A stretch of 64,000 nt of DNA from Rhizobium johnstonii 3841 (GTDB lineage: Bacteria; Pseudomonadota; Alphaproteobacteria; Rhizobiales; Rhizobiaceae). Below, piece after piece: positions 2,235-41,497 of the stretch. The notes under the pieces are model-generated. The model saw only the letters and a program-made list of their open reading frames with translations, had not been told where the DNA came from and did no database searches. The DNA is taken from NCBI RefSeq assembly GCF_000009265.1, contig NC_008378.1, forward strand, positions 124,001 to 188,000. The letters are read 5' to 3'. The stretch's first letter is position 1; the number at the start of each line of letters is the position of its first letter. The translations under genes and the position numbers were made by a program.

Positions 2235-3493
2235 TCGTTTCCTCCCGTAGTGAAGCAAGGCTTGGCGGCGCCGATCGGACGGCGCAGGAGATTGAAGCAG
2301 GCAGTGGCAGCAACCAGGAACGCTCCGCTCCCGAGCAGAAGGAAGAGTGCCTGCGGTGCAAACAGCTCCATCAGCTGGGCGGCGAGCCCAGGTGTCATGA
2401 TGTTGCCGATCGAATAGAGGAGCAGCAGGCTACCCGATGCCGAGACCATATGGCGGCTGTCGAGCTGTGAGTTGGCGTAAGCGATGCCGACCGGGTAAAT
2501 TGTCAGCGCGATCGCGCCGTAGGCGAAAAACAGACCGTAGAGAAGCATCTGCGGGTAGCTTCCGGGCCAGGCAATTGCTGCGCACAGTCCTGTTCCCGCC
2601 AATCCCTGAAGGAGAAGTAGAACGCGCCGGTCCATACGATCAGACAACCATCCGACTGGCGCCTGAGCGAGCATGCCGCCCAGGCTGAAGGCGGTTACCA
2701 GCGTCACGGCGACCGCCGCGTCGAGATGCACCCGCTCAGCATAGATCGGCGTCATCGTATAGACATTCATATTCGTCATGCCCGCTTGAAAGACGCAGAC
2801 GACAGCCACCGGCGCTAGAGCAGCGAGCCGCCAAATGCCATACCGATGCCCGGAGTGGGCGTTACCGGCGTCGACCGTCACCGCCAGCGGCAGCCGCAAG
2901 ACAGGCCAAGGTCCACCAACAAAGCGGGCGTAGATCAGTCCAAGCAGGATCACGCCGAGCGCGATCTGAAAGAGATGGGGAGAGGTCGCTCCGGCCGCTT
3001 CGACAAGCAATTGCGCAAACAGCGTCGCCAGCGACGTCATCAGCATATAGAGCGAGAAATAGGCTCCGCGGTTCTTCTGGTCAGCGTAAAGATTGATCCA
3101 GCTTTCGGAAACGACGAACAGCGTCGCGATGGAAAAGCCGTTTATCAGACGCAGGCAGAACCAGACCGGAGCGACTTCCGTCAGCATGTAGCCGCAGGCG
3201 CCAAAAGCGGCGAGCAATGCCACGGCCAGGAAAGCGCGCTCATGTCCGAAGCGGACGACCATGAAACGGGCTGACAGGCAGCCGGCTAGGAAGCCTATGG
3301 GAAACGCCGTCAGCAACAACTGGACAACGTGGGGATCGATTGCGGGGTCGCTGAGGTGAAGAGAAACCGTGGTCGTCAAAAGTGAATTGCCTGTCGCGAC
3401 GATGCAGATGCTCGCCATGACATGCAGGATTGCACGAAGCCCCGCGGCTTTCCGCCAGAAGTCACCAATCGTCCTATCGGGATCGCGCATCAT
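2231..3493 (-). CDS. MFS transporter
   Basis: A 420-residue integral membrane carrier of the major facilitator superfamily with about twelve hydrophobic segments. Basic loops include RFGHERA near the 2-3 loop and SDRMDRR near the 8-9 loop, which are typical MFS positions. The gene starts inside the stop of the ABC ATPase gene (TAATG) and ends inside the hydantoinase start (ATGA), so it is part of a tightly coupled operon. Its sequence resembles YcaD-like sugar/drug MFS proteins. It may be a second route of uptake or an exporter for products of the hydantoinase step. Direction of transport and substrate are not decidable here. Confidence 0.85.
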   Translation of the reverse strand: MMRDPDRTIGDFWRKAAGLRAILHVMASICIVATGNSLLTTTVSLHLSDPAIDPHVVQLLLTAFPIGFLAGCLSARFMVVRFGHERAFLAVALLAAFGACGYMLTEVAPVWFCLRLINGFSIATLFVVSESWINLYADQKNRGAYFSLYMLMTSLATLFAQLLVEAAGATSPHLFQIALGVILLGLIYARFVGGPWPVLRLPLAVTVDAGNAHSGHRYGIWRLAALAPVAVVCVFQAGMTNMNVYTMTPIYAERVHLDAAVAVTLVTAFSLGGMLAQAPVGWLSDRMDRRVLLLLQGLAGTGLCAAIAWPGSYPQMLLYGLFFAYGAIALTIYPVGIAYANSQLDSRHMVSASGSLLLLYSIGNIMTPGLAAQLMELFAPQALFLLLGSGAFLVAATACFNLLRRPIGAAKPCFTTGGNE

Positions 3494-5547
3494 TATGCCT
3501 TATCGGCGGAAACAAGAACGGATGGCCGAGCCGCGAGATCTGCTTGATCGATGTGGCAGAGAATCTCATGCGTCTCGGACATCTTGCGCAGCGGCGGTGG
3601 AGCGGTGTCGCAGATGCTGCCGAGCTTGCGGTGGCACCGCGTCGAAAAGCGGCAGCCGGCGGGTACGTTGACCGGGCTCGGTGTTTCGCCGGACAGGCGA
3701 ATACGCTCGCGCGGCGCTTCATCCGGATGCGGGCTGCGGATCGCTGACAGAAGTGCTTCGGTATAGGGATGCGCGCCCTCGCCGAAGACTTCCTCGACGG
3801 TTCCCTGCTCCATGATCTTGCCGAGATACATGACCACAACCTTGTCTGCCACGTGGCGAACCAGCGCCAGGTCGTGGCTGATGAACAGCATGGTGGCATG
3901 CTTCTCCCGTTGAATGTCGAGAAGAAGCGTCACGACCGCGGCCTGCACCGAAACGTCGAGCGCCGAGACCGGTTCATCGGCGACAATAAGCGAAGGTTCC
4001 GCCGCAAAGGCGCGTGCGATGGCGATACGCTGCTTCTGACCGCCGGACAGCTGGTTCGGCTTTCGGTCCGCGACGGCCGGAGACAGACGCACCATTTCTA
4101 AGAGCTCGCGGACGCGCTGCTCGATCTCGGCCTTTCCCTTGCGAATGCCGAATTTCTTGATCGAACGACGAATGGAGAAGGCGGCCGAATGCGAAGGGTT
4201 GAGTGTGCTATCGGGATTTTGAAAGATCATCTGAATTTGTTGCAGCAGCGCGCGGGGACGTTCGCCGGCCCGCAGTTCGGCGATGTTTTCGCCAGCCATG
4301 CGGATTTCGCCCGACGTCGCCTTGTCGAGACCCGTCACAATGCGTGCCAGCGTAGATTTTCCGCAGCCGGACTCGCCGACCAGCGCCACGATCTCGGCTG
4401 TTGCCGCTTCAAAACTGACCGCTTCGTTTGCCTTGACGGTCTTCTGGCGGCCGACGGGATAGAGACGGTTCACATCGGACAGCGTTATCGCCGTCGATTT
4501 TGCAATCATCTGTGTCTCGACCGGAGCAACGGTCGCTTCTGCAGCCGAAATTTCCTGCCAGCGGACGCAGCGCACCAAATGCTCTTCCGTCGCCGGCTCC
4601 AGAGCAAGGTCCGGACGGTCGCAGAGGCCGGAGACAAAACTCGAACAGCGCGGCCCGAAAAGACAGCCCTGCGGCCTTTCCTGCGGCAGCGGGATCGAGC
4701 CCGGGATGGCAGCTAGCGTGCGGCTGCGCTTGTCACCGGCAATGTCCGGAATGCAATCGATAAGGCCGCGCGTATACGGATGTTTCGGCCGGCGGAATAC
4801 TTCTGATGTCGTTCCCTCTTCTACCATCTGGCCGGAATACATGATGCCGAGACGATCGCAGCTCTCTGCGATTAGCCCGAGATTGTGCGAGATGAACAGC
4901 AGGCTGGTCGAGTAACGTTGGCGCAATTCGGCGATCAGATCGATGACCGCAGCCTCGACGGTCACATCAAGGCCGGTTGTCGGTTCATCGAGCAGCAACA
5001 GGGACGGTTTGGCAAGCAATGCCATGGCGATGACCACGCGCTGCTGCTGGCCACCAGACAGCTGATGCGGATACCGCTTCATCATGTCGCCGGGGTCAGG
5101 CAGGCGGACGTCGGCTAGCATCGCTTCCGCCATGGCCATGGCGTCTTTCTTGCTGGCGCCTATGTGAAGCAGGGGGACTTCGGCAAGCTGCGCACCAATC
5201 GTCTTCACCGGATTGAGCGCACTCATCGGATCCTGGTAGACCATTGCGATCTGCCGCCCGCGGACGGAACGCAACTCCTTGGGGGAGGCATCGACCAGTT
5301 GCTTGCCGTTGAAGCGGATGCTGCCGCCGGCAACAATACCGGTCGCGCCGAGATAGCCCATGATCGCCATGGCCGTGGTGCTCTTGCCGCAGCCCGATTC
5401 ACCCACGAGACCGTAGCTTTCGCCGGGCATGACCTTGAACGAGAGATCGGGGATCGCAACCACCGTTTCGCTCTTGCCGCGAAACTCGATGCGCAGGTTT
5501 TCGATGTCGAGAACGGGTTCACGATCGATCGATGGCGTGATGGACAT
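3493..5547 (-). CDS. Dipeptide/oligopeptide-type ABC transporter ATP-binding protein, two fused ATPase domains
   Basis: A 684-residue cytoplasmic protein fusing the DppD-like and DppF-like ATPases. In domain 1 the Walker A motif is at about 49-57, the LSGGQ signature at 163-167, Walker B/DEPT at about 183-190 and switch His221, followed by a Cys-rich oligopeptide-transporter C-terminal module. Domain 2 has Walker A at 391-399, a second LSGGQ, ADEP and SHDL. Both domains keep all catalytic residues, unlike the fused ATPase at 36060-37883. The ATG at 5547 is preferred because AAGGAG lies five bases upstream; an ATG at 5583 overlapping the permease stop is the alternative. It powers the permeases at 5580-7472. 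Confidence 0.93.
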   Translation of the reverse strand: MSITPSIDREPVLDIENLRIEFRGKSETVVAIPDLSFKVMPGESYGLVGESGCGKSTTAMAIMGYLGATGIVAGGSIRFNGKQLVDASPKELRSVRGRQIAMVYQDPMSALNPVKTIGAQLAEVPLLHIGASKKDAMAMAEAMLADVRLPDPGDMMKRYPHQLSGGQQQRVVIAMALLAKPSLLLLDEPTTGLDVTVEAAVIDLIAELRQRYSTSLLFISHNLGLIAESCDRLGIMYSGQMVEEGTTSEVFRRPKHPYTRGLIDCIPDIAGDKRSRTLAAIPGSIPLPQERPQGCLFGPRCSSFVSGLCDRPDLALEPATEEHLVRCVRWQEISAAEATVAPVETQMIAKSTAITLSDVNRLYPVGRQKTVKANEAVSFEAATAEIVALVGESGCGKSTLARIVTGLDKATSGEIRMAGENIAELRAGERPRALLQQIQMIFQNPDSTLNPSHSAAFSIRRSIKKFGIRKGKAEIEQRVRELLEMVRLSPAVADRKPNQLSGGQKQRIAIARAFAAEPSLIVADEPVSALDVSVQAAVVTLLLDIQREKHATMLFISHDLALVRHVADKVVVMYLGKIMEQGTVEEVFGEGAHPYTEALLSAIRSPHPDEAPRERIRLSGETPSPVNVPAGCRFSTRCHRKLGSICDTAPPPLRKMSETHEILCHIDQADLAARPSVLVSADKA

Positions 5548-31970: not shown

Positions 31971-32909
31971 TCAAACGGCCTTGAGATACTCGACCCAGCG
32001 CGGATCCTGCATGGCCGCGCGAGCGCGCATGTGTTTCCAGGCGCCATATTTGTAGAAATCAAAATCGAGCGCAGAGACGACATTCTGGACCATGGCCCAA
32101 GTCGACCATTTCACATCGGCAAGCGCCCGGTGCACGGCAAGACGAGCCTTCATTCGCGGATCGAAACGGCCGAAATATTCCTCTATCACTTCCGCCTCCA
32201 CGGCATCGGAGAAGAACATCTCGCCGCACCAGATGCCGATATCGTAGCAACGGTCGTTATTAGAGGCATATTCGTAGTCGATCAGCATCAGCGACTTGTC
32301 CTCGGCGACCATGAAATTGCCCGCCATGGGATCGTTGAAACAGGCAACGAGATCGATGCCGGAGGCCTCGAGAGCCGCGCGTGCCAGCCGATATTGCTTG
32401 TAAAGCCAGGCAAAATCGATCGGGAAGGCACCGTTCAGTTCGCGCACTTGCTCGATGTGTTCGTCGATCATGTCGAAGATCGTCTTGGTCAGCGGCAGTC
32501 TGCCTGAATCGTTGAAGGTGCGGTAGAGCCCGACGACGGCTTTGCGCACCGTCGGATCCTGGAAATCGCGGTTGGTGCAGGCGCGGTGGCCTTCGATGTA
32601 ATCGGCAATCTCGACACCCCTGTCAGCGAGATACTCGTAGATCCTCGGGCCGATGCCGAGGTCCTGCGCCCGACGGCTGGCATCCAGCGCCGCGTTACGG
32701 TCGATGAACATCTCGGTGCCGCGGCCAGGAACCTTGACGAAGAAGCGGCCCTGTTCGCCTGCGACCCTGACCCGCCAGTTCGAATTGCTGATACCGCCGT
32801 GCACCGGACCGTAGTGGAGTTCGCGTCCCGACCACGGCTCAATCTCACGCAGCAGGGATTCGATCTCCGCTTCCGCCTCGTTTGCCGCTTCTCCCAATCG
32901 TTTTTCCAT
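31971..32909 (-). CDS. Choline/ethanolamine kinase-like (LicA/APH-fold) phosphotransferase
   Basis: A 312-residue small-molecule kinase of the aminoglycoside phosphotransferase/choline kinase fold. The catalytic Brenner loop reads CFNDPMAGNFM, with the Asp and Asn in the HNDxxxxN-type spacing of choline kinases, and the metal-binding loop is LIDYEYASNNDRCYDIG, close to LicA-type enzymes. The ATG at 32909 follows GAGATCAAGCC and lies 11 bases after the stop of a second kinase gene. It is the last gene of the importer/M20 hydrolase operon and probably phosphorylates an amino alcohol or a similar hydroxylated amine. Confidence 0.85.
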   Translation of the reverse strand: MEKRLGEAANEAEAEIESLLREIEPWSGRELHYGPVHGGISNSNWRVRVAGEQGRFFVKVPGRGTEMFIDRNAALDASRRAQDLGIGPRIYEYLADRGVEIADYIEGHRACTNRDFQDPTVRKAVVGLYRTFNDSGRLPLTKTIFDMIDEHIEQVRELNGAFPIDFAWLYKQYRLARAALEASGIDLVACFNDPMAGNFMVAEDKSLMLIDYEYASNNDRCYDIGIWCGEMFFSDAVEAEVIEEYFGRFDPRMKARLAVHRALADVKWSTWAMVQNVVSALDFDFYKYGAWKHMRARAAMQDPRWVEYLKAV

Positions 32910-32920
32910 GGCTTGATCTC

Positions 32921-33889
32921 TTAGAGTGTGCGGAGCATGAATTCGAAACGCGGATTGTGAAGCGCCATCCGGCAGCGCAACAGGCGCCATTGCGCATATT
33001 TCAGAAATTCGATACCGCCGCGCGGCGAAACCCTGTCCATCAGCATGCCCCACATGCCCCAGAAGAGATCGTCGGCAATGGCATAAAGCCGGCAGCGGTT
33101 GAGCGATGTCTGGCGAAATTGTCCCTCGAAGATTTCGAGCGCCGGCTGCATTTCGCTGTCGAACTGGAAGGCCTCGTTGAGCAGGATGCCGATATCGTAG
33201 AACGGATCGACATTGCGGGCCTCGTCGAAATCGACCAGTTGCACTCTACCATCCGGCGCGATCATGATGTTGGAGGCAAGGCCGTCGGCATGGGCTGGTT
33301 TTTCATCGAAGCCGGTGGCGATGATCGCCGCTTCGATATCGCCGACGCATTCGCGCATCCACCATCCGTCTGCGGCGACCTCTACGACGGCTGCATCGAC
33401 AAGCGCTTTCTCGACGACGCGGATACGGTCGAACACCGTCCACGTTTCGCCAAGCGGCGTGCCGCCGTGCAGGGTGCTCTTGGCGGCGATGACGCTTTCC
33501 AGAACATTGCGCTTGCGCAGGTCGTCCATTCTGGCGGTATGCCAGGCTTCCGGCAGGCGGTCGAAAACGACCGCCGACATTTCCGGGCTGTGCCACAGGG
33601 GCGCCGGCGTCAGGCCCAGGGTTGAAGCCTGACGCGCGGCGCTAACGGACCTGTCCAGATCGATGAAATCCGACTGGTCCGTATGGAGAATTTTCAGGAA
33701 ATAGGTGGCGGGCGCATCTCCCCTGGCAACGAACCAGTTCTGGCTGTCCACGGCGCGGTGCGTCGGCGAGGCGACGCCCGCAATGCCCAGCGCATAACGC
33801 ATATCGGCGTTTGCCCAGCCCGGAACGGCCCGGATGGCGGCTTCCGCCGCCTTCTCATCCACCGTGGATGCTTGCCCGAGTGCCTTCAT
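32921..33889 (-). CDS. Aminoglycoside-phosphotransferase-fold kinase
   Basis: A 322-residue kinase of the same superfamily as its downstream neighbour but only distantly similar to it. The catalytic loop is AHADGLASNIM and the metal loop LVDFDEARNVDPFYDIG, so both essential Asp residues and the Asn are present. It starts 12 bases after the M20 hydrolase stop. Two different kinases of this fold in one operon suggest either a heteromeric enzyme or successive phosphorylation of related substrates; neither can be settled from sequence. Confidence 0.82.
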   Translation of the reverse strand: MKALGQASTVDEKAAEAAIRAVPGWANADMRYALGIAGVASPTHRAVDSQNWFVARGDAPATYFLKILHTDQSDFIDLDRSVSAARQASTLGLTPAPLWHSPEMSAVVFDRLPEAWHTARMDDLRKRNVLESVIAAKSTLHGGTPLGETWTVFDRIRVVEKALVDAAVVEVAADGWWMRECVGDIEAAIIATGFDEKPAHADGLASNIMIAPDGRVQLVDFDEARNVDPFYDIGILLNEAFQFDSEMQPALEIFEGQFRQTSLNRCRLYAIADDLFWGMWGMLMDRVSPRGGIEFLKYAQWRLLRCRMALHNPRFEFMLRTL

Positions 33890-33901: not shown

Positions 33902-35188
33902 TCAGTCCGTGGTTTTCAGGATGTTGCCGTTGAGGCAGAATTTCCACAGCATGGCGCTGAGGATTTCCGTGCCCAGCAACCGGTCTTCCGGCGTGGTGAA
34001 TTCCGTCGGATGGTGGATGACGCCGCCGACACTCGGCACGGCGATGACGACAGCCGGGGAAACGGCCGTCATGCTGACCGCGTCATGTCCGCCGATCGTG
34101 TCGAGCAACAAGGTTTCGAGGCCGAAGCCGGCAGCCGTATCCTGGGCCAGGGCGACCAGCCCTTCATCCATGTTCCCGGCGCGGCGGCGGTCGATCGAGC
34201 GGACATCGAAGCCGACATCCGCTTTTTTGGCGCAGATCTCGATCTTTTCCTTGAGCTGGGCTTCAACCCGGGCAAGCACATCGGGCTTGGCGGAGCGCAG
34301 TTCGATGAACATCACCGCCTCGCCGGGCACGACATTGGGGGAATTCGGATAGACCTCGAGACGGCCGCAGGACGTGTGCAGGTCGATCCCGGCCTGATCG
34401 GCAAAGCCCTTCAATTCGGCGATCAGGTAAGCCGCGGCGAGAAGCGCGTCATGGCGCTCGGCCATCGGCGTCGGCCCGGTGTGCGCCTGGCGGCCGATGA
34501 AGGCGAGCCGGTATTTGACGTTGCCCCAGAAACGGTTGAAGGCGGCAAAGCGCATGCCTTTCTTTTCCAGCTCAGCGGAACCCTCGATATGCAGCTCGAT
34601 CAGCGCATCGGGAATAACGGGGCCGAACGTGCCCGCATAACCGATGTCATCAAGAGCCTGATTGACGGAAATGCCGTCGCCATCCTTGCGGGCGAGCGCG
34701 AAATCGAGTGTCAGTTCGCCGGCATTGACGCCGCTGCCGAGAAGGCTCGGCTGGAAGCGGGCGCCCTCCTCGTTGGTCCAGTTGACGATGCAGAAATTGA
34801 CTTTCGGCGTGACCCCAGCCGCGGCAACCTGCTTGCGTATGGCGTCGATCGCCGCGCAGGCGGCAATCACGCCATAGGCGCCATCGAAACGGCCGCCGTT
34901 CGGCTGGCTGTCCAGGTGCGACCCGCTCATGACCAGAGGCGCATCCGGCCCTGCCCAGTCGAGAAAACCGTACATGTTGCCCATCGGGTCGATCTCCAGG
35001 CGCAGGCCCGAATTCTTCAGCCAGTTCGCCAGCCAATCGCGTGCCGCCTTGTCTTCCTGTGACAAGGTCAGCCGCGTCATCGCACCACCCGGCCCGCCGC
35101 CAAAGACGGAGACTTCCTCCATCATCCGGTGCAGGGCTTCGGCATCGACCTCAGGCAGGGATGCAGGTTCACTGCGGGTTTCAAGCAT
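33902..35188 (-). CDS. M20-family Zn-dependent hydrolase (N-carbamoyl amino acid hydrolase / AllC-like, divergent)
   Basis: A 428-residue metallo-amidohydrolase related to N-carbamoyl-L-amino acid hydrolase, ureidopropionase and allantoate amidohydrolase. Metal-site residues are visible: His91 in SGSHLD, Asp102 in GRFDG, Glu140-Glu141 in NEEGARF and His200 in ELHIE, with a late His in IHHPTEFT. Two usually conserved segments differ: HIEQGP is HIEGSAELEKKG, and the late SHxPxE region is IHHPTE. This divergence, and the paired kinases, suggest a substrate other than a plain N-carbamoyl amino acid. The start overlaps the DeoR gene by eight bases. Confidence 0.85.
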   Translation of the reverse strand: MLETRSEPASLPEVDAEALHRMMEEVSVFGGGPGGAMTRLTLSQEDKAARDWLANWLKNSGLRLEIDPMGNMYGFLDWAGPDAPLVMSGSHLDSQPNGGRFDGAYGVIAACAAIDAIRKQVAAAGVTPKVNFCIVNWTNEEGARFQPSLLGSGVNAGELTLDFALARKDGDGISVNQALDDIGYAGTFGPVIPDALIELHIEGSAELEKKGMRFAAFNRFWGNVKYRLAFIGRQAHTGPTPMAERHDALLAAAYLIAELKGFADQAGIDLHTSCGRLEVYPNSPNVVPGEAVMFIELRSAKPDVLARVEAQLKEKIEICAKKADVGFDVRSIDRRRAGNMDEGLVALAQDTAAGFGLETLLLDTIGGHDAVSMTAVSPAVVIAVPSVGGVIHHPTEFTTPEDRLLGTEILSAMLWKFCLNGNILKTTD

Positions 35189-35945
35189 AAATCACCTTCA
35201 CTTGCGCCTCCTCAAGCTTTTCAAGAAAATCTGCCCGCGGAGGCGCATCAGTGATGAGCAGATCAACGTCACGAAAATTATAGGTGCAGAAATTACCCTG
35301 GCGGCCGAACTTGCTGCTGTCGGCGAGCATCACGACCTGCTTGGCATGGCGGCGCAACGCCCGGCGCACCAGCGCCTCGTCCTCGCCGAGGTCCATGAAA
35401 CCGAGGTTGATATCGACCGTCACCGCGCTGACGAAGGCGATATCGAAGAGATGTTCGCGGATCACGTTGAGCGTATCGGTGCCGAGAAACGCCCGGTAGC
35501 TCGGCCGTAGAACGCCGCCGACCGCGACCACGTTATTGGATTCCACCCCCGACAAGGTCTGGATGATATCCAGCGAGTTGGTGTAGATATTGATCAGCGG
35601 CCGATCGACAAGATAGCGCGACAGCGCCAGCATCGTCGTGCCGCTGTCGAGGAAGATCTTGGAATGGTCGCGCAGCTCCCTGGCGGCGAGGGTTGCGATT
35701 TTTGCCTTTTCACGGGCATTGACGCGCATACGTTGCGAGATCGGCTGGTCGGCATCCCGACGCGGCGTCACGCCGCCGCCATAGATGCAGCGCAGGTGCC
35801 CTTCCATCTCCAGCTGCTTCAGGTCGCGGCGCACGGTTTCCGGGCTGACGGAAAACTCCGCTGCCAGTTCCTTGACCGTGACCCGGCCATGCTTGGCCAG
35901 TTCTTCGAGAATGTGTTGCAGACGTGCCTGGGGATGGTCGGTCAT
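35181..35945 (-). CDS. DeoR/GlpR-family transcriptional regulator
   Basis: A 254-residue DeoR-type repressor with an N-terminal winged helix (RLQHILEELAKHGRVTVKELAAEFSVSPETVRRDLKQLE) and a C-terminal sugar-isomerase-like sensor domain (LDSGTTMLALSRYL; VGGVLRPSY). Members usually respond to a phosphorylated metabolite, which fits the two kinases encoded just downstream. The ATG at 35945 is chosen since upstream in-frame sequence lacks family character. It lies inside the operon between the ATPase and hydrolase genes, so it probably autoregulates the whole unit. Confidence 0.9.
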   Translation of the reverse strand: MTDHPQARLQHILEELAKHGRVTVKELAAEFSVSPETVRRDLKQLEMEGHLRCIYGGGVTPRRDADQPISQRMRVNAREKAKIATLAARELRDHSKIFLDSGTTMLALSRYLVDRPLINIYTNSLDIIQTLSGVESNNVVAVGGVLRPSYRAFLGTDTLNVIREHLFDIAFVSAVTVDINLGFMDLGEDEALVRRALRRHAKQVVMLADSSKFGRQGNFCTYNFRDVDLLITDAPPRADFLEKLEEAQVKVIYA

Positions 35946-36059: not shown

Positions 36060-37883
36060 TCAAGCTGCGGCATGGGAAAGCGTGTTTTCCACCAAAAAGC
36101 AAGCAGCCAGATCCTTGTTGCCGCGGGCGGTCAGGACCGGGCTTTGCTTGTGACAGCGGCCGAATGCGTTCGGGCAGCGGCTGGCGAAACTGCAGCCGGG
36201 CGGCAGGTCGATCGGGCTTGGCGGCTCTCCTTCCAGCAGGCACTCTTCCGGCTTGTAGCGGCGCTCCTCCAGCGTCGGCACGGCGCTGAGCAAGGCCTTG
36301 GTGTAGGGATGGCCTGGATCGAAGAACAGCCGGCTGTTGTCGGCGATCTCGACGACTTCGCCGAGATACATGACGGCAACGCGATTGCAGACGCGCCGTA
36401 CCATGGCCAGGTCGTGGGAAATGTAGACATAGGTCAGGCCGTGTTGGGCCTGCAACTGCTCGAACAGCTTCAGCAATTTGAACTGCTCGGTCTGGTCGAG
36501 CGACGACAGCGTCTCGTCCATGATCAGCACCTTCGGCTCCAGCACCATGGCGCGGGCGACGTTGACGCGCTGGCGCTGGCCGGCACTCAAACCCAGCGGA
36601 AGCTCATCGTAGAGCGTACCGGGCAGGCCGACCTCACGCATCACGGAGAGTACGCGGTCACGCAACTCCGCGCCCCTGGCGATGCCGTGCGTCTTCAGCG
36701 GCTCCTCGATGATGGCGCCGATGGCGGTGCGTGGCGGCAGCGAATTGAAGGGGTCCTGCAGCACCAGCTGAAAATCGCGCCGGAACTTCAAAAGTCCCTT
36801 GCCGGAAAGCCTGGTGATATCCTGCCCGTCGCAGAGGACCTGGCCGCTATCGGGCCGTTCCAGCCGGCTGAGCAGGCGCATGAGAGTGGACTTGCCGCAG
36901 CCGGATTCGCCGACGATGCCGAAGTTCTCGCCCGGAAAGACGTCGAAGGTGACGTTGCGCACGGCGCGCACGGTGCTGTAGCTGGCAAAGGTGCCGCGCT
37001 TGCGCACCCGGTAGGAACGGGTGGCATCACGAATGCTGATGATCGGCTTGCGGGTCTCGGCCGGCAGATCGATGGCGACCGCTTCGCTCGTCCAGATCTT
37101 CGGGATCTGGCTGATCAGTTCGCGGGTATAGGGATGCTCCGGCGTGTCGACGAGCGCCTTCGTTGCCTGCCGCTCCACGACCCTGCCTTCGGCCAGAACC
37201 AGGATCTGATCGGCAGCGTCACTCACCAGCGGCAACGACGAGGATATAAAGACGATCGCCGTGTCGAAACGCGTCGTCAACTCCCGCATCAGACGTAGCA
37301 CCTGGGCGGCGACCGTAACATCAAGCGGCTGGGTGACGTTGTCGGCGACAAGGAAAGCCGGATTGCTGACCAGCGCATCGACGATCAGGGCGCGCTGCAT
37401 CATGCCGCCGCTGAATTGCGATGGATATTCGTGATAGCGCATCTGCGGCGAAGGGATGCGCACCGCGCCAAGCAGATCGATGACCCGCTTCCTGGCTTCC
37501 TCATGCGCAATCTCCGGTGCGACCGCGCGCAATTTCTCGACGATCTGCTGGCCGACCGGCAGGGTCGGATCGAGGGCCCCGGCCGGATTGGCGCCGACAT
37601 AGGCGATCTCGCGGCGCAGCATGCGCAGCTTTTGTGCCGGCAAATCGAGGATGTTTTGGGATTTGTAGACCACCGATCCGGACGTAACCTTCAGTGGCGG
37701 ATCGATCCAGTTGACGAGCGCACGCGAGAGCACGGTCTTGCCGGCGCCGCTCGCCCCGATGATGCCGAGAATTTCGCGCGGGGCCAGATCGAAGCCGATG
37801 TCGGAAATGATCGGGCGCATGCCGCCGCCCGTTTCCAGGCCGACGCTCAGATCGCGAACCTTCAGAAGCGGTGTGCCGGTCAC
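36060..37883 (-). CDS. Fused dipeptide-type ABC ATPase with a degenerate N-terminal nucleotide-binding domain
   Basis: A 607-residue protein with two ATPase domains. Domain 1 keeps Walker A (GASGAGKT, 43-50) and a signature (FSGGMMQR), but the Q-loop Gln is Ala98, the catalytic Glu is Asn182 (VADNVT) and the switch His is Ser215 (FISSSL). Domain 2 has Walker A GESGCGKST, Q-loop FQLVLQDP, IMDETLSSLD and YISHDL intact, yet its signature is LSAGQ. The start is GTG at 37883, six bases after GGAGG, overlapping the permease stop as GTGA. The pattern is that of asymmetric transporters with one hydrolytic site. Confidence 0.92.
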   Translation of the reverse strand: MTGTPLLKVRDLSVGLETGGGMRPIISDIGFDLAPREILGIIGASGAGKTVLSRALVNWIDPPLKVTSGSVVYKSQNILDLPAQKLRMLRREIAYVGANPAGALDPTLPVGQQIVEKLRAVAPEIAHEEARKRVIDLLGAVRIPSPQMRYHEYPSQFSGGMMQRALIVDALVSNPAFLVADNVTQPLDVTVAAQVLRLMRELTTRFDTAIVFISSSLPLVSDAADQILVLAEGRVVERQATKALVDTPEHPYTRELISQIPKIWTSEAVAIDLPAETRKPIISIRDATRSYRVRKRGTFASYSTVRAVRNVTFDVFPGENFGIVGESGCGKSTLMRLLSRLERPDSGQVLCDGQDITRLSGKGLLKFRRDFQLVLQDPFNSLPPRTAIGAIIEEPLKTHGIARGAELRDRVLSVMREVGLPGTLYDELPLGLSAGQRQRVNVARAMVLEPKVLIMDETLSSLDQTEQFKLLKLFEQLQAQHGLTYVYISHDLAMVRRVCNRVAVMYLGEVVEIADNSRLFFDPGHPYTKALLSAVPTLEERRYKPEECLLEGEPPSPIDLPPGCSFASRCPNAFGRCHKQSPVLTARGNKDLAACFLVENTLSHAAA

Positions 37884-38803
37884 GATTTGCCTCCATAGAT
37901 ACGATTGCGAGCCCGTTCGAGCGACGCGCCCATCAGGTTGATGCTGGTCAGGCACAGACACAGGAACACGCCCGGCATGGTGGCGATCCACCAGGCGTTG
38001 AGCAGGTATTTGCGGCCGTCGGCGATGATGTTGCCGAAAGTCGGCGTCGGCGGCTGAACGCCCAGCCCGATGAAGCCGAGGATGGATTCGAAGATCATCA
38101 TCCGGGCGACATCGAGCACCGACACGAAGATGATCGGCGGCAGCACCAAGGGCGCCAGCAGGCGCACCATGATGCGGAAATCCGATGCGCCGTAGATTTC
38201 GGCGGCGCGCACATATTCCCGCTTGCGCTCGGTCATCACGACGCTGCGGGTGACGCGGGCATAGACTGGCCAGCTCGAAAGGCCGAGGACGAGGATGATC
38301 GCGGGGATCGTCGGGCGCGAGACTCCGAGCACGGTGATGGCCAGAATAATCATCGGGATCGACAGCTGGGCATCGGTCAGGCGCATGATCACCATGTCGA
38401 CGCGGCCGCCATAGTAGCCGGCGATCGTGCCGAGCGAACAGCCGATGATCAGCATGACGAGAACGGTGGAAAGCCCGATCAGCAACGAGTAACGCAGACC
38501 GACAAGGCTGCGCACCAACATGTCGCGTCCGATCTGGTCGGTGCCGAGCGGCGCCGTCCAGCTCCATTTTTCGCCCATGAACGGCGGCGCATGCAAGCGT
38601 GTGGCGACACTCATCTTCGTGGGGTCGATACCGCTCAATTCCGGATAAAGCAGGGCCGCCAGAACCAGCACGATGAAAATGGCAGCGCCGAAACGAAATT
38701 CGTTGGAGGCAAGGGCAATCCGCCAGATACGCCGCGCCACCGAAGCGCCGCGTTGCGTTGCCGGAACCGGGACTGCCGGGATGTCTGTCTCTGTCACGCT
38801 CAT
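37880..38803 (-). CDS. Dipeptide-type ABC transporter permease (DppC-like)
   Basis: A 307-residue inner-membrane permease with an N-terminal cytoplasmic tail, a first TM at about 38-58, about five more TMs and the coupling region around ARVTRSVVMTERKREYVRAAEIYGAS. The ATG at 38803 shares its A with the TGA of the DppB-like gene; a TTG one codon earlier is also in frame. The gene ends inside the start of the fused ATPase. Confidence 0.92.
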   Translation of the reverse strand: MSVTETDIPAVPVPATQRGASVARRIWRIALASNEFRFGAAIFIVLVLAALLYPELSGIDPTKMSVATRLHAPPFMGEKWSWTAPLGTDQIGRDMLVRSLVGLRYSLLIGLSTVLVMLIIGCSLGTIAGYYGGRVDMVIMRLTDAQLSIPMIILAITVLGVSRPTIPAIILVLGLSSWPVYARVTRSVVMTERKREYVRAAEIYGASDFRIMVRLLAPLVLPPIIFVSVLDVARMMIFESILGFIGLGVQPPTPTFGNIIADGRKYLLNAWWIATMPGVFLCLCLTSINLMGASLERARNRIYGGKS

Positions 38804-39783
38804 CAATATTCCAACCTTGGATCGATCATGGTGGCAATCAGGTCGACTGCGATGTTGATGAAGACGAAGATCGCGCTGGTGACGATGGCGATCCCTTGGA
38901 TGAGCGGGAAGTCACGCTGCAGCACGGCGTTGATGGTCAAAAGGCCGAGGCCCGGATAGTCGAAGATGAATTCGACGACGAGGACGCCACCCAGCAGGCC
39001 GCTGATCTGGATGCCGATCAGATTGAGCAGCGGAACGGACGCATTGCGTAGCGCATGGGCAACGATGATGCGGCTGCGACTAAGGCCGCGGACATTGCCG
39101 ACTGCGATGAAGGGCTCCATCATCACGGTAGCCACGGATCCGGTCAGCGTCCGGATCAGCACCGGCGCCAGTTCGACGGCCAGAACGATCGCCGGGAGGA
39201 TGGTATAGGCAAAGCCGGAATAGCCGATCGCAGGCAGCCAGCCGAGCTTGACCGACAAAAGCATGGCAAGGACGATGCCGAGCCAGAAGTTCGGCAACGA
39301 TATGAAGATCGAGGAAATGTAGAAGGCCACGCGATCCGGCCATCGTCCAGGCGCCAGTCCGCCGGGAATGCCGACCAGGAACGAGAAGACCAGGGCGAAG
39401 AATATTGCCAGTCCGCCGAGTTGCAGCGTCATCGGCAGGGTGTCGGCGATCAGGGTCAGCACTTCGGCCCGTTCGCCGCGAGTGGAATCGCCGAAGCTGG
39501 AGCCGCCTGTAGAAGCGCCGCTCGCAGGCCGTACGAAGGATTGTCCGAGATCGCCCCTGACGACGCCGCTCATATAGCGGCCGAACTGCACGAGGATGGG
39601 ATCACGCAGGCCCATGTCCTTGGCGATCTGCTCGATCAGCGCTTCTGGCGCCATGCCGCCGGCCATCAGCCGGACCGGATCGCCGGGAACCACACGCAGC
39701 AGCGTGAAGATCAGCAGCGTCACCAGAAAAACGATCAATGCGCCTTGCGCCAGCCGTCGAACCAGAAAACTGAGAATGAACAT
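38803..39783 (-). CDS. Dipeptide-type ABC transporter permease (DppB-like)
   Basis: A 326-residue inner-membrane permease with the DppB layout: TM near the N-terminus (residues about 8-28), a long periplasmic loop containing the unusual Gly/Ser-rich stretch ASGASTGGSSFGDST, then five TMs. AGGA lies six bases before the ATG at 39783. A strong GC-rich hairpin at 39870-39898 separates it from the binding-protein gene. Confidence 0.92.
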   Translation of the reverse strand: MFILSFLVRRLAQGALIVFLVTLLIFTLLRVVPGDPVRLMAGGMAPEALIEQIAKDMGLRDPILVQFGRYMSGVVRGDLGQSFVRPASGASTGGSSFGDSTRGERAEVLTLIADTLPMTLQLGGLAIFFALVFSFLVGIPGGLAPGRWPDRVAFYISSIFISLPNFWLGIVLAMLLSVKLGWLPAIGYSGFAYTILPAIVLAVELAPVLIRTLTGSVATVMMEPFIAVGNVRGLSRSRIIVAHALRNASVPLLNLIGIQISGLLGGVLVVEFIFDYPGLGLLTINAVLQRDFPLIQGIAIVTSAIFVFINIAVDLIATMIDPRLEY

Positions 39784-39913: not shown

Positions 39914-41497
39914 TCAGCTGAATGCGGCCTTCGAGGCGTCCATGGATCCGTCAGGATATATGAAGAGACCGGCCAGCGACTTGTCCATCGCGTGGATCAT
40001 CACCGAAGTGAACAGTGACAGGGCCGGCACCTTTTCGGCAAGCATGGGCATGGTTTCGGTCTGCAGGATTTTCTTGCGCTCATCGAGCGACGGGGCACTG
40101 CGCTCCTTGTCGAGTGTCGCGTCGAGTTCCTTGTCGACGATGCCGGTAATGCGCTTCGAGGTCGAATGGAAATGCGTGCGCAGCACGAGGTCGGGCTCGG
40201 GCGAACCGGTGGACCAGCCGCAATCGACCATATGGCCGGGGCCGCCGCCCGGACGGTCGTAGAGGCGTTCGTTCCAGGCGGCGATTTCCAGAACGGAGAG
40301 CGACACCTGAAAACCCTGTTCCTGCAGCATGGCGGTGATGACCTCGCCGTATTCCTTGGTCTTCGGGTAGAAGCCGACGGAGGTGATGTATTCCAGCGGC
40401 GGCAGGCCCTCGCCCTTCGGGAAGCCGGCCTCGGCCAGCAGCGCCTGGCATTTTTCCGGGCTGTATTCTGGATAATTCGGCAGGTCGATATAGCCGAACT
40501 TCACCGGCGACACGTAATTGGACGAAGCATGACCGGCCGAGCCCAGAATTTCGACGATCATCGAGCGGTCGATCGCGTGGCAGGCCGCCTTGCGGATCAG
40601 CGGGTTGTCGAACGGCGCCTTCGAGCAGCGGAACCAGAGATACTTGTTCTCGACCGAAACGACGCTGCTGATGGCGATCTTGTCGTTGCCCTGGAGCGAA
40701 GTCACCTGTTCCGGTTCCAGACGCTCGACGATCGAGGCCTGGCCGTTGAGCAGGGACAACATGCGCGTCGTGCTGTCGCCGACGAAATTGAAGCTGATGC
40801 CAGGAATCTTCGGTGTACCGAGGAAATAATCAGGATAGGCTTCGAGGATCGTGGCATTGCCTTCCTGCTTGACGAACTTGAACGGGCCGGTGCCGTTCAG
40901 GCGCTGCGTCAGCGGGCCGGTCGGGCCGCCGGCGACATCGGTCGCCGACATGATCGGCAGGTATGAGGCGAGGAAGATGAACAGATGGGCCGGATATCCG
41001 CCCTTAGAGGTATCGACGATGACCGTGTAGTCGTCAGGGGTGGTGATAACAAGCGTCTCGGTCGGGCCGGGATAGAATTGGGCCGGGCGGTCCGGCCCGG
41101 AGCCGTATTCGAAGGTCGCCTTGACGTCTTCGGCCTTGAAGGGTTTGCCGTCGTGGAATTTGACGCCTTCGCGCAGCTTGATCTCGAGCTTGTTCGGATC
41201 GAGAAGCTTGATGCTGGTGGCCAGTTCATAGACCACTTCATCGGGCTTTTCGACAGTCATCGGCGTCCGCGTCAGGAAGCCCATGACGAAGCCTTCGATA
41301 TTCTTCTGCGACAGCGTCGTGTGGCCGGTCGGGTCCCAGTTGCCCGTAATATTTTCCGCCGACAGGAACACCACCGTCTTGCCCGATTGGGCAAAGGCCG
41401 AGGAGAACAGAAAATCCGGGTTGATCTGCAGGAGACCGGCACCCGTGCCAGCTGCACCAAGCCCGGCGAGGAAATTGCGTCTGCTGATGTCATTCAT
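39914..41497 (-). CDS. ABC transporter substrate-binding protein, family 5, Tat-exported
   Basis: A 527-residue periplasmic binding protein of solute-binding family 5. The N-terminus MNDISRRNFLAGLG is a twin-arginine signal followed by a hydrophobic stretch and an AFAQS-type cleavage site near residue 37. GGGAAG lies about six bases before the ATG. It is the first gene of an eight-gene operon: binding protein, two permeases, fused ATPase, DeoR, M20 hydrolase and two kinases. Ligand identity is unknown; downstream enzymes suggest an amide-linked hydroxylated or amino-alcohol compound. Confidence 0.92.
   Translation of the reverse strand: MNDISRRNFLAGLGAAGTGAGLLQINPDFLFSSAFAQSGKTVVFLSAENITGNWDPTGHTTLSQKNIEGFVMGFLTRTPMTVEKPDEVVYELATSIKLLDPNKLEIKLREGVKFHDGKPFKAEDVKATFEYGSGPDRPAQFYPGPTETLVITTPDDYTVIVDTSKGGYPAHLFIFLASYLPIMSATDVAGGPTGPLTQRLNGTGPFKFVKQEGNATILEAYPDYFLGTPKIPGISFNFVGDSTTRMLSLLNGQASIVERLEPEQVTSLQGNDKIAISSVVSVENKYLWFRCSKAPFDNPLIRKAACHAIDRSMIVEILGSAGHASSNYVSPVKFGYIDLPNYPEYSPEKCQALLAEAGFPKGEGLPPLEYITSVGFYPKTKEYGEVITAMLQEQGFQVSLSVLEIAAWNERLYDRPGGGPGHMVDCGWSTGSPEPDLVLRTHFHSTSKRITGIVDKELDATLDKERSAPSLDERKKILQTETMPMLAEKVPALSLFTSVMIHAMDKSLAGLFIYPDGSMDASKAAFS

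Follow-up and report, generated by a model that had tools for sequence, protein, structure and literature searches.

The fused two-domain peptide-type ABC ATPase encoded on the minus strand at 36060..37883 of the window (the whole stretch of 64,000 nucleotides that was analysed) is predicted to drive a Dpp/Opp-class importer in which one composite nucleotide site, site 1, holds ATP without hydrolyzing it and hydrolysis takes place at site 2 only. We put the probability of this reading at roughly 80%. Hydrolysis is predicted only at site 2 because the site of the first nucleotide-binding domain (NBD1) lacks the hydrolytic residues in every aligned member of the family.

The ORF encodes 607 amino acids from a GTG start, which overlaps the upstream permease gene by 4 bases. 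It has no internal stops, and translation and profile search revealed two stretches each of ABC_tran (179.1 bits) and oligo_HPY (76.6 bits). Every motif residue and coordinate was confirmed base by base on the DNA; all lie on the minus strand. NBD1 has an intact Walker A motif, GASGAGKT (residues 43-50, 37734..37757), and an intact signature, FSGGM (residues 157-161, 37401..37415), which completes the working site 2. At the Q-loop position of NBD1 there is Ala98 in place of Gln (37590..37592), the switch position has Ser215 in place of His (37239..37241), and the Walker B/D-loop segment is changed to DNVTQPLD (37320..37343), so that it reads D181-N182 rather than the usual D-E and Asn182 stands for the catalytic Glu. 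NBD2 retains its Walker A motif GESGCGKS (residues 325-332, 36888..36911), the Q-loop Gln376 (36756..36758), the catalytic Glu457 (36513..36515) and the switch His490 (36414..36416), but its signature (residues 432-436, 36576..36590) reads LSAGQ for LSGGQ. In composite site 1 the Walker A/B, Q-loop and switch come from NBD1 and the signature from NBD2, and in site 2 the roles are reversed, as described in PMC7756269; for this reason A98, N182, S215 and LSAGQ all fall in site 1. Site 2 is complete, with K331, Q376, D456-E457 and H490 facing the FSGGM of NBD1. The initial annotation had proposed this arrangement: loss of the three catalytic positions from a domain 1 that keeps its Walker A and SGG signature, an LSAGQ signature in a domain 2 that keeps all three, and changes confined to the complementary halves of one composite site. 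The DNA bears it out. The chance that this is in fact a canonical two-site ATPase, with changes that are errors of alignment or annotation, is negligible; no supporting points were found, and the motifs were read straight from the DNA and aligned in relatives. An annotation or frame error was rejected on the strength of the stop-free ORF and the DNA check of its motifs.

The family alignment combines the window protein with 113 loci that genome searches supplied, 52-99% identical to it. These 114 members represent 103 distinct sequences and 71 clusters at 90% identity, and the counts given here are of entries, not of independent events (rows L022/L104, L103/L129 and L085/L128 are identical pairs, and L005/L034 are apparently one genome). 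In the motif table no member has Gln at position 98, where A is found in 72, G in 28, S in 13 and N in 1, the commonest residue thus accounting for only 63%. Position 182 is N in 110 and S in 4 and is never the catalytic Glu; position 215 is S in 109, A in 4 and N in 1 and is never the switch His. Lys49, Thr/Ser50, Asp181 and Ser158-Gly159-Gly160 of NBD1 are each present in 114/114, as are Lys331, Gln376, Glu457 and His490 of NBD2. In signature 2, Ala replaces the first Gly in 113/114, the exception being LNGAQ in Halopseudomonas; Ser433 is found in 108/114 and Gly435 in 113/114.

A fifth change in site 1, the loss of the NBD1 A-loop aromatic residue, is likely. At residue 16, which by our own assignment is the A-loop position, the family has L in 51, A in 46, V in 12 and I in 2, with 3 gaps (n = 114), while the NBD2 counterpart, Tyr291, is present in 114/114. 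This is a weaker sign than the others, because the aromatic is missing from 4 canonical paralogues too; among the 14 canonical paralogues described below the position is F in nine, A in three and V in one, with one gap.

Two protein database searches supplied a further 240 proteins, 120 from each among the matches listed, out of 1116 and 2052 hits; these partly overlap the 114 loci (shared species). Among these listed matches, position 182 is Asn in 240/240, position 98 is Gln in 0/240, and position 215 is S in 235, A in 4 and N in 1. Signature 2 is LSAGQ in 225/240 of the matches listed and another non-LSGGQ form in the other 15; Glu457 and Gln376 are each found in 240/240 and His490 in 239/240. 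The three losses and a non-LSGGQ signature 2 therefore co-occur in 114/114 loci and in 240/240 of the database matches listed, and orthologues with an intact domain 1, which were sought in both sets, do not occur in either. Q, E and H are also absent from nine extra members (L131-L133 and L155-L160) that lie outside both counts. One of these, from Acidisoma (L159, 6977-8779), shows the losses in other letters: its loop reads DNIIQPLD, its switch residue is Thr and its signature MSAGQ. Where names are given among the database matches listed, they are those of a generic ABC, peptide/nickel, dipeptide, oligopeptide or glutathione ATPase.

Split two-gene versions were looked for with NBD1 alone, and the 120 matches listed (of 645) were kept out of all counts; they proved to be fragments of fused proteins mixed with single-domain canonical ATPases. 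P0297, P0308, P0311, P0342 and P0352 scored as canonical in the alignment, yet their motifs show them to be misaligned C-terminal fragments with LSAGQ or FSAGQ. P0277 and P0284, labelled as Idotea baltica contamination, resemble an NBD1 attached to the end of NBD2, perhaps by an assembly collapse between the two repeats. One single-domain ATPase of peptide type that does not belong to the family, P0355, carries Asn at the catalytic Glu position (DNPTSALD) and Glu at the Q-loop, with the switch His kept.

As a control, we took from the same genome the 13 fused ATPases of peptide type that matched best apart from the protein itself, together with the fused ATPase at 3493-5547 of the window. All 14 are canonical in both domains with respect to Q, E, H, the Walker A Lys and the SGG signature; the ATPase at 3493-5547, which the initial annotation had singled out as intact, does have Q, E, H and SGG in both domains. 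Judged from these alignments, chance is excluded as the cause of the triple loss, because the loss is found in 114/114 loci and 240/240 of the proteins listed against 0/14 of the fused ATPases of the same genome. In a search of the phylum (398 genomes, 9 with a match), family members scored at E 1.4e-220 or better, and the next three rows, 38-41% identical, at about 1e-122 to 1e-121, a sharp break. Two of these three rows, L134 and L135, are canonical. The third, L136, retains Gln and Glu in domain 1, but its switch position is Gln (ISQ) and its signature 2 is GLGASA, a departure from the canonical pattern of another kind than that of the family; it falls on the canonical side of the tree and was counted with that side. 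That tree has 60 rows, and although several long canonical branches are placed unsurely, the 43 degenerate rows all lie on one side of a single branch with 100/100 support (200/200 bootstrap trees). The stem of the degenerate group is long, at 1.72 changes per column.

An alternative is a decaying or non-functional gene, with a domain 1 that has drifted because it is not needed any more. In its favour, conservation is a little lower in NBD1 than in NBD2 (mean 0.707 versus 0.732; core 0.727 versus 0.779), and in two Rhizobium plasmid records (H12, CP140806.1; H47, CP090551.1) the ATPase matches are in two pieces, as if the copy were interrupted. Against this reading, the loss is uniform in the 114 loci and in the 240 proteins among the matches listed, the six-gene set occurs together in 74/80 loci, and domain 1 shows no relaxation: in 12 pairs dN/dS is 0.025-0.261 for NBD1 and 0.054-0.242 for NBD2, values that are rough for the more distant pairs because dS is high there. 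These ratios indicate that NBD1 is under purifying selection. Decay of domain 1 was rejected on the uniform loss and the purifying selection, and we regard it as very improbable; the triple loss with the changed signature 2 is a fixed trait of the family.

Conservation extends to the altered residues. N182, T184, Q185, P186, L187, D188 and Ser215/Ser216 are 96-100% conserved (n = 114), with Gln185 in 114/114, and a near-invariant family motif, D-[N/S]-[V/I]-[T/I]-Q-[P/A]-L-D, appears to replace the old catalytic loop. Positions 185/186 are T followed by A or G in the 14 paralogues as against Q followed mostly by P in the family. Since residues 182-188 are conserved and 185/186 are unlike those of the paralogues, the site appears to have been rebuilt and then held, not lost by drift. 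The conservation of Asn182, Thr184, Gln185 and Ser215/Ser216 also argues that the altered site is itself under selection, which would be expected if site 1 still hydrolyzed ATP by a rewired chemistry in which the work passed to Asn182 together with the newly conserved Gln185 or with Ser215. We consider this improbable: the usual general base is gone, Gln and His are gone with it, and Pdr5, whose Glu is likewise replaced by Asn, counts as degenerate in PMC7756269. A site 1 that holds ATP without splitting it is the reading we prefer, with the qualification that Asn for Glu could leave slow hydrolysis there.

The distribution of the family is patchy. The family search placed members (E no higher than 1e-200) in 30/394 genomes, counting the own one, and in 0/7 of the other genomes of the same genus listed in that search; the class search placed them in 5/385 genomes at E 1e-150, again counting the own one. 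Named carriers include Rhizobium, Mesorhizobium, Bradyrhizobium, Methylorubrum, Paracoccus, Skermanella, Acidisoma, Halopseudomonas and Stutzerimonas. The gene is often plasmid-borne: 77 plasmid records match at E 1e-150, of which 49 are predicted to be conjugative. On the R. johnstonii plasmid pRlX5 an identical gene order is annotated, and its ATPase is 99.8% identical.

All of the genes around the ATPase lie on the same, minus strand. Upstream of it are permeases of the DppC/OppC type (37880..38803; profile search, with the start taken from an annotated relative and checked) and of the DppB/OppB type (38803..39783; profile search and annotated relative), and a substrate-binding protein of the SBP_bac_5 family (39914..41497; Pfam). 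Downstream are a DeoR-family regulator (35181..35945; profile search and annotated relative), a Zn-dependent M20 hydrolase of the allantoate/N-carbamoyl amidohydrolase type (33902..35188; PRK09290.2-1, 690 bits, cut-off 424) and two adjacent APH/choline-kinase-like phosphotransferase genes that close the operon (31971-33889). The first of these is APH-family (32921..33889; Pfam) and the second APH/choline-ethanolamine-kinase-like (31971..32909; Pfam and annotated relative). In 74/80 genome loci the genes for the SBP, both permeases, the ATPase, the M20 protein and two kinase-like proteins are found together on one strand. Of the six loci without the full set, L054, L087 and L103 are cut by contig ends, and L040, L080 and L110 are partial within the stretch covered. 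Taken singly, the SBP and PermB genes are present in 78/80 and PermC in 79/80, and contig ends that truncate two loci account for the absences; 43 loci have a DeoR relative on the same strand and 28 have one on the opposite strand only. Among 18 further loci, mostly divergent (L140 repeats L104), permeases are present in 18/18 and an SBP in 17/18, the single miss being a locus cut by a contig end, and the whole set is present in only 6.

The neighbours of these divergent members differ. L143 has a different M20 protein, a short-chain dehydrogenase and a cupin regulator; L141 has a choline-dehydrogenase-like GMC enzyme and an aldehyde dehydrogenase. In L151 (9186-11802) the next genes after the family member encode a DAO oxidase carrying a BFD-like [2Fe-2S] domain and a Pyr_redox_2 protein; we take this layout to resemble opine or hydroxyproline oxidases. 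Because neighbouring genes vary among members, the asymmetry is a trait of the transporter subfamily and not of one pathway. The operon also occurs on opine-catabolic and Ri plasmids (for example L155, 2936-14436). On pAoF64/95, pRi_26-59, pRi_1724 and Shinella pShin-03 (L155, L156, L158 and L160) an amidase precedes it and a HisN-type phosphatase follows it, and on pAoF64/95 and pRi_26-59 it is adjoined by EutB/EutC and an N-formylglutamate amidohydrolase. Such plasmid neighbours hint that the substrate may be an amide formed with ethanolamine or another amino alcohol of that kind. Matches to GntI were set aside as a substrate clue, being weak (44 and 108 bits, cut-off 357). Searches of the open-access literature for the operon and for plasmid gene names returned nothing usable, and PMC6341043 makes no mention of ethanolamine, dipeptide, transport system or amidase.

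From these data we infer the substrate, the direction of transport and the ATP cost per cycle as follows. The SBP_bac_5 protein would deliver a substrate that is perhaps amide- or carbamoyl-linked with an amino-alcohol part, for processing by the M20 hydrolase and the pair of kinase-like proteins; the recurrence of amide hydrolysis together with amino-alcohol kinases, lyases and dehydrogenases faintly suggests an amide of an amino alcohol. Site 1 would bind ATP without splitting it and serve as a hinge or latch that aids closure of the dimer. The weakened contacts in site 1 (no Q, no H, LSAGQ and probably no A-loop aromatic) would keep it from locking shut, and since NBD1 seems to lack the A-loop aromatic, ATP may bind there weakly or not at all. 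The importer would be reset by hydrolysis at site 2, where the Walker A/B, Q and H of NBD2 would act with the FSGGM of NBD1, at a cost of one ATP per turn.

The ATPase has the domains of the Dpp/Opp class, its operon includes an SBP_bac_5 protein and two BPD permeases beside it, and the four-cysteine C-terminal motif of the class is found in NBD2 (Cys564, 570, 577 and 595; 36099..36194, minus strand) in 114/114 members of the alignment. The two consensus nucleotide sites of the solved Dpp/Opp members are not found, site 1 being without Q, E and H in 114/114, and because of this non-consensus site the ATPase is filed as a variant of the class rather than an ordinary member. It passes PRK11308.1, a dipeptide ATP-binding subfamily model (487.1 against a cut-off of 408), and TIGR02769, the NikE model (353.2 against 332.6), in both cases with the best stretch in NBD2; it is not named NikE because that model is single-domain. 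The NCBIfam equivalog cut-offs for GsiA (416.7/1077), YejF (395.9/834), OppF (436.6/540) and DppF (418.8/660) were missed. NBD1 scores on PRK11022, which we take to be a DppD-type model, and NBD2 on DppF. With respect to degenerate-site proteins, the catalytic Glu is lost in one NBD only, and the switch His and the opposite signature are changed in the same composite site. The exporter fold is not found: by Pfam the ATPase has no membrane domain, and the permeases and SBP are separate, adjoining genes. An AlphaFold model of the two NBDs had a pLDDT of 86.1 and a pTM of 0.83, with residues 100-102, next to the Q-loop, below 50.

In the literature we met, the question of what makes some ABC transporters depend on two hydrolytic sites and others on one is treated mainly for exporters. 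The family described here would be a natural clade of the importer class with a fixed dead site and with canonical fused paralogues in the same cell. Its binding protein should permit tightly coupled assays, making the question of ATP per substrate testable in an importer. The pattern also marks a distinct subfamily behind generic database labels (114 loci and 240 proteins among the matches listed, partly overlapping).

The closest solved relatives are the M. tuberculosis DppD/OppD group, which gave the best sequence match (334 bits) and the best structural matches to the model (DppD 8wdb and OppD 8j5q). DppABCD (8wd9/8wda/8wdb) and OppABCD (8j5q-8j5t) are likewise peptide-class importers with fused NBDs, but their DppD (8wd9) and OppD (8j5q) have Gln, Glu and the switch His in both NBDs and SGG signatures, whereas in the family NBD1 is without Q, E and H and the signature of NBD2 reads LSAGQ; the E-to-Q change in 8wdb belongs to the deposited chain. 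E. coli DppABCDF is similar in that NBD1 is close to the DppD-type model and NBD2 to DppF. Without DppA, E. coli DppBCDF binds ATP analogues on DppF only and not on DppD, despite full motifs in both, and with DppA both sites are filled, according to PMC12136057. The Dpp class may thus be functionally uneven even when canonical. RbsA and NupO are also fused importer ATPases with one degenerate site and form a partial precedent, but they are type II importers in which the second Walker A Lys is lost, according to PMC11466899; here the Walker A Lys of the degenerate domain is invariant (Lys49, 114/114) and the catalytic residues are lost. The initial annotation had called such asymmetry unusual in a dipeptide-type importer. 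This holds within the Dpp/Opp class, for which no description of a degenerate site was found among the papers listed by searches of an open-access library, and gives way for fused importers at large, in view of RbsA and NupO.

These comparisons bear on an alternative in which site 1 no longer binds ATP usefully, NBD1 merely lends its FSGGM to site 2, and a single ATP is bound. NBD1 has neither the Q-loop Gln nor the switch His nor, apparently, the A-loop aromatic; it is DppD-like, and DppD is the subunit left empty in DppBCDF (PMC12136057); and the degenerate site of RbsA and NupO is judged not competent for binding or hydrolysis in PMC11466899. Lys49, Thr/Ser50 and Asp181 are nonetheless invariant and Ser433 and Gly435 nearly so, and because these Walker A/B and signature 2 residues are so constrained, a nucleotide-free site 1 is hard to square with the data. 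We consider this alternative unlikely, though it deserves to be kept in mind, and retain an ATP-holding site 1 as the preferred reading.

The ATP-holding reading resembles what is known of degenerate-site ABC proteins such as TM287/288, TAP and CFTR, most of which keep the Walker A Lys. TM287/288, MsRv1273c/72c, BmrCD, TAP, CFTR and ABCB11 each have one composite site without the catalytic Glu, and degenerate-site proteins often show switch-His or signature changes as well (PMC7756269 and PMC12038006). They are mostly exporters or exporter-fold channels with Asp, Met or Ser for the Glu, whereas the family here belongs to an SBP-linked importer class, with one soluble two-NBD chain and Asn for the Glu. 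Yeast Pdr5 is like it in having Asn for the catalytic Glu, a lost switch His and a changed signature in the same composite site, but differs in having lost the Walker A Lys too and in being a eukaryotic exporter; when its four motifs were made canonical, activity was abolished (PMC7756269). With about even confidence, we propose that a single-origin importer clade has converged on the one-engine design of exporters, CFTR and TAP: ATP would stay parked in site 1 as a hinge for several cycles, only site 2 would burn ATP, which would halve the ATP price of import, and the rebuilt loop would communicate with the working site. According to PMC7544095, ABCB1 with only its Glu changed traps ATP and ceases to pump, and transport returns on three further changes to that site, which weaken its contact with ATP. 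That Q, E, H and the LSGGQ glycine are lost together in the family fits an unlocked site of this kind, by analogy with ABCB1.
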